64,000 nucleotides of DNA from Polaribacter sp. SA4-12. GTDB taxonomy: Bacteria; Bacteroidota; Bacteroidia; Flavobacteriales; Flavobacteriaceae. Of this stretch, positions 12,493-14,250 are shown one piece after another (position 1 is the stretch's first letter; the number at the start of each line of letters is the position of its first letter). The notes under the pieces were generated by a model, which made no database searches, was not told the DNA's origin, and worked only from the letters and a program-made list of their open reading frames with translations. Both the position numbers and the translations under genes were made by a program. The stretch covers positions 506,001 through 570,000 of the forward strand of contig NZ_CP019334.1 of NCBI RefSeq assembly GCF_002163675.1, given 5' to 3'.

Positions 12493-12960
12493 ATGAAGTA
12501 CAGACAACTTACCAAAGAACAATTTGAAAGTTTACATGAAGATTTTGCACGTTTTTTAGCTACACAAAGTATTGACGCTAAAGAATGGAAGCAAATTAAA
12601 GAAGAAACACCTAAAGTTGCAGAAGATGAAATGAATGTTTTTTCTGATGTTGTTTGGGATGATGTTTTAACAAAAACCAATTATGTTGAGCATTTTTCTA
12701 AGACTTCTGTAAATCTGTTTAAGTGCGATAAAGAAGAAATTCATAGAATTGCAATTAAAATAACTTGGGATATTAATTTACTAGAACAAAAAGGTTTTGA
12801 GTGGTTAATGCAAAACCCTATGGACAACTCTGTTGAAATTTTTAAAGGTACAAAACCTTATAATTCAGAAAGAAATCCTGAAATTTTTGATTTGATAGAA
12901 AAAGGAAGCTCAATTTCTAAAGGAGAAATCTTTGAGTATTTTAATCAATTGGTTTCTTAG
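12493..12960 (+). CDS. DUF6495-type conserved hypothetical protein
   Basis: 155 residues, soluble, acidic, no signal peptide. It begins MKYRQLTKEQFESLHEDFARF and contains SIDAKEWKQIKE and VWDDVLTKTNYVEHFSKTS; I recognise this as a family conserved across flavobacteria (DUF6495 from memory), with no known function. It starts 26 nt after the ribosomal-operon terminator. Its TAG stop ends exactly where the IS110 insertion begins, so the protein is intact but its original downstream sequence has been moved 1.25 kb away. Confidence 0.8.
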   Translation: MKYRQLTKEQFESLHEDFARFLATQSIDAKEWKQIKEETPKVAEDEMNVFSDVVWDDVLTKTNYVEHFSKTSVNLFKCDKEEIHRIAIKITWDINLLEQKGFEWLMQNPMDNSVEIFKGTKPYNSERNPEIFDLIEKGSSISKGEIFEYFNQLVS

Positions 12961-13031
12961 TCATCCTATGTTTGTAAAAATAAGGATCTGTTTTTAAAAA
13001 GCTTAAATTAGATTTAATATTTAACAAGAAA

Positions 13032-13176
13032 AGTAAGGGTAAAGGAAAAGATTATAGTCCGTCATTTGTCATTAAAGACCGTTCGCAATGCTAATCACTT
13101 TACCCCTTACTACATAAACTTGAACAGATCATTAGACCATCAAGTCTGTATTTAGGATTGATAAGTAAATGTAGTA
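13032..13176 (+). ncRNA. Candidate IS110 bridge RNA (target-binding and donor-binding loops)
   Basis: Two consecutive stem / internal loop / hairpin modules. Module 1: stem AGTAAGGGTAAAG (13032-13044) with CTTTACCCCTTACT (13098-13111), inner stem GATTA (13050-13054) with TAATC (13092-13096), apical hairpin GTC-ATTAAA-GAC (13068-13079). Its loop sides hold GTCATTT (13061-13067) and GTTCGCAATG (13081-13090). Module 2: stem TACTACATAAACTT (13108-13121) with AAGTAAATGTAGTA (13163-13176), apical hairpin AGAC-CATCAA-GTCT (13134-13147). Its sides hold ACAGATCATT (13124-13133), identical to the right end of the element, and TAGGAT (13153-13158), complementary to ATCCTA at the left end. The stems share a few bases at 13108-13111. 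The true RNA ends are unknown. Confidence 0.75.
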
Positions 13177-13199
13177 ATTTTTCTATAAAAACATTTGAT

Positions 13200-14171
13200 A
13201 TGAGTAAAATTATAGGAATTGATATTAGTAAGCAAACCTTTGATGTTTCTTATTTAGAAAAAGATAAATGGATGCACAAAATTTTTAAGAATCAAAATAC
13301 AGGTTTTGAGCAATTTATTAAATTGATTAGTGCATCAGACTGGATTGTAATGGAGGCTAGTGGTCCTTATTATGTTCAGTTAGCAACTTTTTTACATGCA
13401 TCTAGTTTTAATGTATGTGTATTAAATCCTTTGATAATTAGAAGATATAGTCAAACAAGATTATATAGAGCAAAAACAGATAAAAAAGACGCAAAGACAA
13501 TTGCCGAATATGGTGCTCAATATGAGTTAAAAAGATGGTGTCCAGAGAGTAAACCTAGTATAGAAATTAAACAACTTTACACAGCTTTAGAATTACTAAA
13601 AAAACAAAAACATCAAACAAAAAGACAATTAGAATCCTTTGAAGCAACAGGTTTGTTGAGTTCGGATCTTAGAAAAGAATTAAAACAAGTACTAATATTA
13701 TTAATAAGACGTATTGATAAGTTTGAAAAAAAGATAGAGCAAATAGGAAGATTAGCTTATAAAGACACGGTTGAAAGAATAAAAACGATACCAGGAATCG
13801 GGCTAAAAACGGCTATTATGATGAGTGTTATTACAGATAATTTCACAAAATTTGATAACTATAAACAACTGACAGCTTTTGTAGGATTTAGCCCAAGGCT
13901 ATATCAATCAGGAACAAGTGTAAAAGGTAAAGGACATATTTGTAAAATGGGCAAACCTCAAATTAGAAAACTTTTGTATTTATGTAGTTGGTCTGCAAAA
14001 AGAGTAAATAAAAATTGTATCGAAATGTATGAACGACTTAAAGAAAAAGGAAAACCCGAGAGAGTAATTAAAATTGCAATAGCTAATAAATTAATAAAGC
14101 AAATTTTTTCTATTGCGACTAACAAACAAATTTACAATGAAAATCATCAAAACTTATATTTTCTGAAATAA
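13200..14171 (+). CDS. IS110-family transposase (bridge-RNA-type recombinase)
   Basis: 323 residues from the ATG at 13200; the frame is open 14 codons further upstream but MSKIIGIDISK is the normal family start. The N-terminal RuvC-like DEDD domain shows Asp8 (GIDISK), Glu52 (VMEASGPY), Asp94 and Asp97 (KTDKKDA). A coiled coil (about 125-185) links to the C-terminal domain, with a helix-hairpin-helix-like IPGIGLKTA and the conserved SGTSVKGKGH segment, which should hold the catalytic serine. All key residues are present, so the enzyme looks functional. A CATTTG box lies just before the start. Confidence 0.95.
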   Translation: MSKIIGIDISKQTFDVSYLEKDKWMHKIFKNQNTGFEQFIKLISASDWIVMEASGPYYVQLATFLHASSFNVCVLNPLIIRRYSQTRLYRAKTDKKDAKTIAEYGAQYELKRWCPESKPSIEIKQLYTALELLKKQKHQTKRQLESFEATGLLSSDLRKELKQVLILLIRRIDKFEKKIEQIGRLAYKDTVERIKTIPGIGLKTAIMMSVITDNFTKFDNYKQLTAFVGFSPRLYQSGTSVKGKGHICKMGKPQIRKLLYLCSWSAKRVNKNCIEMYERLKEKGKPERVIKIAIANKLIKQIFSIATNKQIYNENHQNLYFLK

Positions 14172-14210
14172 AAGAAATTTTAACAATAAATAATAGTTTT
14201 TTAACACAGA

Positions 14211-14250
14211 TCATTTCGAATGCAACGCAGTGAAGTTGAGAAATCTTTAT
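14211..14250 (+). repeat. Palindromic-repeat remnant split by the IS110 element
   Basis: TCATTTCGAATGCAACGCAG followed by TGAAGTTGAGAAATCTTTAT matches the 5' arm of the GTCATTTCGA... flavobacterial repeat. Its first bases (GTC) lie at the other side of the IS at 12960-12962. No clear 3' arm is visible. Confidence 0.65.

Follow-up and report, generated by a model that had tools for sequence, protein, structure and literature searches.

The IS110 element, its recombinase and its insertion sites

The window analysed here, 64,000 nucleotides of the forward strand of the Polaribacter sp. SA4-12 genome, carries an insertion sequence of the IS110 family (IS110 group) at 12965..14214 (+), which spans 1250 bp with one core counted. 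Its ends were defined by comparing the 14 copies, 98-100% identical, that this 3,990,161-bp single-contig genome harbours; their common segment begins at 12965, immediately behind the core AT (12963-12964), a start that coincides with the left edge proposed by an earlier note made from the letters alone. The family assignment also draws on Pfam: the 323-aa recombinase encoded at 13200..14171 (+) matches DEDD_Tnp_IS110 and Transposase_20 (PF01548, 1.6e-23, and PF02371, 2e-20), i.e., the DEDD RuvC-like and Tnp domains of the IS110 group. Residues D8, E52, D94, D97, S237 and G238, inclusive of the conserved Ser-Gly, are invariant across 21 recombinase sequences; the catalytic ones among them are assigned from the IS110 literature. 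By sequence, the nearest solved structures are those of ISCro4 (9t56, E 8.2e-27) and IS621 (8wt6, E 9.6e-26).

The element has the layout of the IS110 group, with a long non-coding left end (LE) of 235 nt (12965-13199) and a short right end (RE) of 43 nt (14172-14214). The latter terminates in ACAGATCAT (14206..14214, +), the left donor, whose last two bases are the core AT. A short subterminal inverted repeat pairs GATCTGT at 12985..12991 (+) with ACAGATC at 14206-14212; as measured in the window copy, it is 7 bp long, the range in the IS1111 group being 7-17 bp. The IS1111 elements differ in their longer subterminal inverted repeats and in an RNA that lies mostly downstream of the gene (PMC11187229), whereas the RNA described below is upstream of the gene, with only the 43 nt of the right end following it.

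All 14 copies are inserted without a target-site duplication; in oriented flanks, GTCAT precedes the element and T[GTA]CGA follows it. The left flanks read [C/T/A]GTCAT throughout (14/14), and in the window they provide the left target half GTC followed by the core AT (12960..12964, +). The right flank is CAT-TGCGA in 12 of the 14 copies, the window copy (CAT-TTCGA; right target TTCGAAT at 14215..14221, +) and copy L005 (CAT-TACGA) each being one base off. The dinucleotide AT at 12963..12964 (+) is common to both junctions and, as judged by eye, to the four guides discussed below, and is therefore taken as the putative core, with the CT core of IS621 as the analogy. Uninterrupted sites of the form GTCATTGCGAGG number 36 in the genome, against none for the reversed pattern; among 199 genomes sampled within the family (Flavobacteriaceae), own genome counted, 63 contain the site pattern. 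An inverted arm lies within 160 nt of the insertion in 4/14 copies; because the joined halves, e.g., those of copy L008, restore one arm of an inverted repeat, the targets are termed REP-like. Two element copies (L003 and L010; G000:C1:674614-677800) lie within one cluster of the target repeat.

A covarying two-module fold in the left end

Upstream of the recombinase, the earlier note had recognized by eye two successive modules of stem, internal loop and apical hairpin. Both appear upon unconstrained folding of 13020-13199 (MFE -34.4 kcal/mol, z -2.57), with 3/200 shuffles being equally good, and the predicted bridge RNA fold as described by model R2, of which the window sequence is a seed member, extends over 13025..13186 (+; 166.6 bits, 1.6e-37). 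The first module, the predicted target-binding loop (TBL), comprises an outer stem with its 5' arm at 13037..13044 and its 3' arm at 13098-13105, an inner stem (13050..13054 with 13092-13096) and an apical hairpin GTC-ATTAAA-GAC at 13068..13079, with compensatory changes in 7/7 pairs of the outer stem (13037-13043/13099-13105), 5/5 of the inner stem and 3/3 of the hairpin. The second, the predicted donor-binding loop (DBL), comprises an outer stem (13108..13115 with 13169-13176), an inner stem (13118..13122 with 13162-13166; compensatory change in 4/5 pairs) and an apical hairpin TAGAC-CATCAA-GTCTG at 13133..13148 (3/5 pairs), all of these features lying on the plus strand. The apical loops ATTAAA (13071-13076) and CATCAA (13138-13143) are exactly where they had been placed. 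The stems likewise stand, but not quite as the 13-14 bp with small interruptions originally drawn: each is an interrupted helix, with 7 + 5 + 3 consensus pairs for the first module and 5 + 5 + 5 for the second.

The relatives used for comparison comprise 74 loci from GTDB genomes, the left ends of 47 of which were examined. In a sequence-only alignment of 39 sequences (the window and 38 relatives), 94.9% of the cells belonging to 25 pairs in five helices are paired, and compensatory change is seen in 22 of the 25 pairs, with 153 such cells as opposed to 42.9 in shuffles, none of 500 shuffles reaching this level. Pairing falls to 28-47% when the partner columns are shifted by 1 to 3. The stem covariation includes G-U steps (e.g., AU:25 GU:7 GC:2), and in a model-fitted alignment 35 of 37 pairs show compensatory change. 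Conservation and covariation of both stems in homologous left ends, which had been proposed as the check on the fold, are hence found.

Certain features of the alignments bear on how these results are to be read. A3 retains 39 of the 48 sequences of A2, omitting L062, L063, L088, L098, L101, L106, L108, L113 and L115, mostly for odd or missing offsets of the closing helix P1 (see below); R1, a model derived from A2 by sequence alone, was set aside. As the ends of A3 were cut at the predicted P1, both A3 and R2 favour this helix. RNAalifold on A3 recovered neither P1 nor the outer donor stem, probably because the spacer lengths vary, and these two helices are supported by swap tests (z -12.6 for the outer donor stem) and by the fitted alignments A4 and A5 (85.8% of outer donor stem cells paired in the model-fitted alignment), which lean to the structure.

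Model R2 matches 51 of 54 sources, 39 being seed members and 12 not. Viral contigs yielded nine distant recombinase relatives (23-39%), and neither these nor three gammaproteobacterial loci gave an RNA match at E up to 10. When the filters were switched off, L130-L132 scored at best 10.2 bits (E 0.23), on a piece of 20 positions, and no match to the IS621 locus (L163) appeared at E up to 10. In its own genome the 14 R2 matches are the 14 element copies, leaving no solo bridge RNAs among them. A known Rfam family was likewise considered and rejected: no window match reached the gathering score, the five matches in 12900-13300 being far below it (E 0.97 to 8.5), and a search of six loci returned one sub-threshold match, elsewhere in L094. 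The most diverged copy in the genome, L014 (G000:C1:2876193-2877450), has substitutions at the window-equivalent positions 13102, 13137 and 13144, which disrupt a single pair in the target stem and another in the donor hairpin, and its reading frame seems to be shifted as well.

Guides in the two loops and a predicted split promoter at the circle junction

All four guides are found in the expected order LTG-RTG-LDG-RDG, with loop 1 corresponding to the insertion site and loop 2 to the joined element ends. In the window, the LTG CGTCAT (13060..13065, +) has the same letters as the top strand of the left target, in keeping with the left flanks of 14/14 copies; the RTG GTTCGCAATG (13081..13090, +), whose reverse complement is CATTGCGAAC, corresponds to the right flanks of the 14 copies, those of the window copy and L005 being one base off. 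The LDG ACAGATCAT (13124..13132, +) recurs letter for letter at the element's right end (14206-14214), and the RDG TAGGAT (13153..13158, +) is the complement of ATCCTA, the right donor made up of the core and the LE start (12963..12968, +). These matches support the reading that loop 1 of the window would read the target and loop 2 the element's own ends, as a bridge RNA would. The earlier reading as a bridge RNA, in which a target loop is followed by a donor loop, is thus upheld by guides that match sites and ends and, among relatives, by right target guides that track their flanks.

The last point derives from a comparison of each RTG with its own flank. The input was 83 copies (14 own, 69 from relatives), 63 of which were usable, i.e., their RTG could be read, their right end was accepted and their flank came to at least 7 nt. 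Eight were dropped for a wrong right-end hit, mostly after an early stop (L009, L014, L052, L065, L066, L102, L106, L113), four for want of a right-end hit (L069, L108, L111, L114) and eight for a short flank (L053, L071, L072, L073, L075, L077, L079, L086); one further wrong right end, that of L054, slipped through the filter and was scored as a mismatch. Across 39 distinct guide-flank pairs the mean match is 5.23/7 as against 3.74 when permuted (0/5000 permutations), and with one pair per distinct guide (n=16) it is 5.50/7 as against 3.39 (0/5000). For example, GTTCAGCATG goes with GCTGAAC (L083), GCTCACCATG with GGTGAGC (L081) and GTTCTGGATG with CCAGAGC (L063). The left target guide is hardly testable in this manner, since GTCAT is nearly constant across relatives; left guides fit poorly in L088/L115, L106 and L109.

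The RDG changes together with the right donor in some relatives, the combinations being ATCCTA/TAGGAT, ATTCTA/TAGAAT and, in one locus, ATCTTA/TAAGAT. The RNA model by itself led to one more genome, in which the six copies compared start with ATCGTA and are followed by TGCGAGG; the RDG is TACGAT in one copy. Among 13 distinct LE-RDG combinations, which represent few donor types, five match at 6/6 and eight at only 4 or 5, taking the best 6-mer of a 16-nt stretch.

Promoters of the Bacteroidota type consist of a -33 TTG and a -7 box with the consensus TAnnTTTG. The left end of the window contains such a -7 type box, TATGTTTG, at 12967..12974 (+). When RE and LE are joined in silico, a TTG lies exactly 20 nt before this box or a close variant in 38/41 loci, whereas in the control, with the genomic left flank, a TTG is found at any spacing of 16-24 in 8/38 testable loci. 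Being split over the element ends, the two halves come to the 20-nt spacing only in the circle. The window element, L047 and L053 are the loci without the TTG, all three having TAG in its stead (14194..14196, +, in the window); hence the window element's own predicted promoter may be weaker, and the element has nonetheless reached 14 copies despite this TAG. The split motif fits a candidate circle-junction promoter of the Bacteroidota type, from which the window copy departs by one base, and is in line with the circle-junction promoter of IS621 (PMC11208160). In copy L013 (G000:C1:3276107-3277358) the left end is changed, reading GTCATC and then TGTTTA, and part of the CCTATG sequence shared by the right donor and the -7 box is gone.

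The predicted closing helix P1, comparison with IS621 and the proposed mechanism

A helix absent from the earlier note, P1, encloses both modules, its 5' arm at 13027..13034 (+) pairing with its 3' arm at 13177..13184 (+) with probabilities of 0.72-0.99 in the window. Swap tests, ensemble folding and the fitted alignment all point to it. The junction strands measure 3, 3 and 2 nt on consensus pairs (both in the window and as the median), and 2, 2 and 0 nt in the window MFE fold. In unconstrained ensembles at least 4 expected end-to-end pairs are present in 44/48 sequences, with fewer in L063, L084, L090 and L098; since a pair linking the two end regions is scored wherever it lies, L062 passes though its P1 3' arm seems deleted. 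P1 thus probably joins the two ends of the RNA into a tight three-way junction; the helix covaries in the family and is weak or absent in a few relatives.

The known system against which this is to be viewed is IS621, for which the available parts of PMC11208160 describe a bridge RNA encoded in the left end, a circle-junction promoter and a CT core. The available parts of PMC11208158 place its TBL at 34-98 and its DBL at 110-177, after a 5' stem-loop which is invisible in the map and whose deletion reduces binding. The IS621 RNA sequence used here (L163) was taken from the E. coli record cited in the accessible part of PMC11806352; of 24 nucleotide identities taken from the available text of PMC11208158, a single offset accommodates all 24, and the runner-up only 12. 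The window family shares with IS621 an RNA in the left end, a target loop followed by a donor loop, the LTG/RTG/LDG/RDG logic, a dinucleotide core common to the four guides, targets of the REP or REP-like kind, a circle-junction promoter (a predicted one here) and a recombinase of similar size (a 328-residue chain in IS621). All four A landmarks of IS621 occur at the same 5-nt offsets in the window RNA, in 48/48 sequences each, as do three of the four G landmarks (44, 48 and 47 of 48); the fourth is an A in the window and a G in 8/48. These shared offsets suggest that both loops are homologous to their IS621 counterparts. The differences are a putative AT instead of a CT core, a predicted Bacteroidota-type instead of a sigma70 promoter, a TBL-DBL junction of 3 nt (median; range 2-8) where IS621 has nt 99-109, and P1 in place of a local 5' stem-loop. 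The earlier note had suggested a compact RNA; the fold is in fact 162 nt long, and a transcript from the predicted promoter would measure about 200 nt, the IS621 RNA being 177 nt. The accompanying proposal of a new structural subgroup does not follow from size, but becomes plausible through P1.

It could be argued that the window encodes an ordinary bridge RNA of the IS621 layout, with a local hairpin as the true 5' element and P1 as a chance pairing of AT-rich sequence. The 5' region of the window can indeed form a hairpin (-4.7 kcal/mol), with 8.9 expected local pairs in an RNA starting at 12979, and a 5' hairpin between the predicted start and P1 reaches z <= -2.5 in 10/46 sequences examined, so a stem-loop does exist, beside P1, in part of the family. 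However, the window hairpin does not rise above shuffles (z -0.6), most of the family is without a standout hairpin, and the RNA from 12979 retains 6.2 expected closing pairs beside the hairpin in the same fold. By comparison, the IS621 RNA has 12.9 expected pairs within the 45 nt at its 5' end and 0.00 between these and its final 30 nt. In an alignment-free swap test, in which the 5' arm region of each element is combined with the 3' arm regions of all others, in fixed windows across all 48 A2 sequences, native arms average -10.0 and swapped arms -6.9 kcal/mol (z -8.7, 0/2000 permutations), with two control pairings at z -1.5 and +2.0. The native partner is the best of the 48 in only 8 rows, and the separation is also seen with cluster representatives (z -9.1 for 32 sequences and z -5.2 for 11; 0/5000 each). 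On the model-fitted alignment, 7/7 modelled P1 pairs show compensatory change, with 74.0% of cells paired. The IS621 layout, with its local stem-loop and unpaired RNA ends, is therefore an unlikely description of the window RNA. The fold of an ISCro4-like element from an Enterobacter plasmid (L130), whose recombinase is 88% identical to that of ISCro4, the closest solved one by sequence, is predicted to have a local 5' hairpin just ahead of the first loop and to lack a P1-like end-joining helix. The Bacteroidaceae members L096, L097, L103, L104 and L114 have an additional 5' hairpin upstream of P1, which is very strong (z -5.8 to -7.5).

The position of the RNA directly upstream of the recombinase ORF on the same strand, with the 3' arm of P1 ending 15 nt before the start codon, raises the alternative of a mainly regulatory leader of the recombinase mRNA, in which P1 would gate translation and the guides would be secondary. 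Yet regulation would not need loops that carry target and donor sequences or an RTG that follows its flank, and the spacing between donor guide and likely start codon varies, being 78 nt from GAAC here and about 90 in L071 (by eye); a role of this kind as the principal one is quite improbable. Transposon ends are classically viewed as acting at the DNA level, and the left ends are conserved, but the G-U steps in the stem covariation, the guide order LTG-RTG-LDG-RDG and the precedent of IS621 (PMC11208160, in its available part) make it highly implausible that the left end works only as a DNA binding site for the recombinase and not as RNA.

The left end of the element thus very probably encodes a genuine bridge RNA, and one of a known kind. 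The mechanism itself is to be regarded as known, because the accessible text of PMC11208160 already predicts bridge RNAs in 85.7% of IS110 elements. By analogy with IS621 for circularisation, transcription, protein binding, catalysis and the position of the core, the element would circularise upon excision, and the joining of RE and LE would create a Bacteroidota-type promoter, with the -33 element from RE and the -7 box from LE, that transcribes the left end. The resulting RNA would fold as a closed three-way junction with P1 joining its ends; loop 1 would read the genomic target GTC-AT-TGCGAA and near variants in REP-like palindromic repeats, and loop 2 the circle junction ACAGATC-AT-CCTA. 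The recombinase would then bind this RNA and recombine donor and target at the AT core without a target-site duplication. We assign this proposal as a whole, i.e., a left-end bridge RNA with a closed junction, a circle promoter and guided recombination at the AT core, a probability of roughly 0.95, the sequence-level elements being the fold, its covariation, the matching of guides to target and donor, the insertion sites and the split promoter motif (seen in relatives, one base off here).

It is more tentative, and somewhat short of an even bet, that the IS110 elements of Bacteroidota possess a separate class of bridge RNA, with a closed three-way junction (strands of about 3, 3 and 2 nt) instead of the open IS621 layout. 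The closed topology is seemingly undescribed, on a provisional view: the RNAs of ISPpu10, ISAar29, ISHne5, ISCARN28, ISAzs32 and ISPa11, which are diverse and have target and donor loops, were compared by legend (PMC11208160 Extended Data Fig. 10, in its available form) and may have closing stems too, and the word 'three-way' is absent from the accessible text of the same paper. Within a limited literature collection, no matching description of a bridge RNA with a three-way junction emerged, R2DT, one of the papers with both terms, using them for different RNAs, and there was no report that combined bridge RNA, IS110 and Bacteroidetes. ISEc21 and the IS1111-type seekRNAs offer the same theme of a non-coding region in a DEDD transposase element that gives a target-matching RNA, and natural retargeting through guide change has been described for ISMch6 (PMC11187229).

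If true, the closed geometry would keep the target and donor loops near each other. In IS621, the 3' end of the TBL and the 5' end of the DBL are about 80 A apart, so that the loops of a synapse are thought to come from two RNAs (PMC11208158, in its available part); a closed RNA would accordingly have to act strictly in trans, with two RNAs per synapse, or in a different complex. P1, if confirmed, could provide a handle on the question of one versus two bridge RNA molecules per synapse, and a stiffer scaffold to set against IS621 as a programmable recombinase. The analysis would also document bridge RNAs in a Bacteroidota lineage with a different RNA topology, an AT core and a different promoter type, and it yields 16 right target guides, each with its site, as a naturally occurring series.

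Beyond the close relatives, R2 matches 27 of 29 loci of a second IS110 clade (L018-L046) in the same bacterial family, whose proteins are 37-41% identical among the best ones listed. On a fitted alignment of 27 loci, 88.3% of P1 cells are paired; in the corresponding swap test, native arms are not separated from swapped ones (507/2000). The members of this clade share the fold, inclusive of P1, and have other ends (LE ..CTTAAGTTTG, RE CTCAGTTCTTTGTT); their recurrent target, TATA..ACG / TTGTTA.., is perhaps another dispersed repeat. Lastly, near a contig end in Polaribacter marinus (L053:1148-1295), a truncated second bridge RNA gene adjoins the element, an arrangement that looks like an insertion at TTAGACAT within the donor-loop hairpin of another copy.
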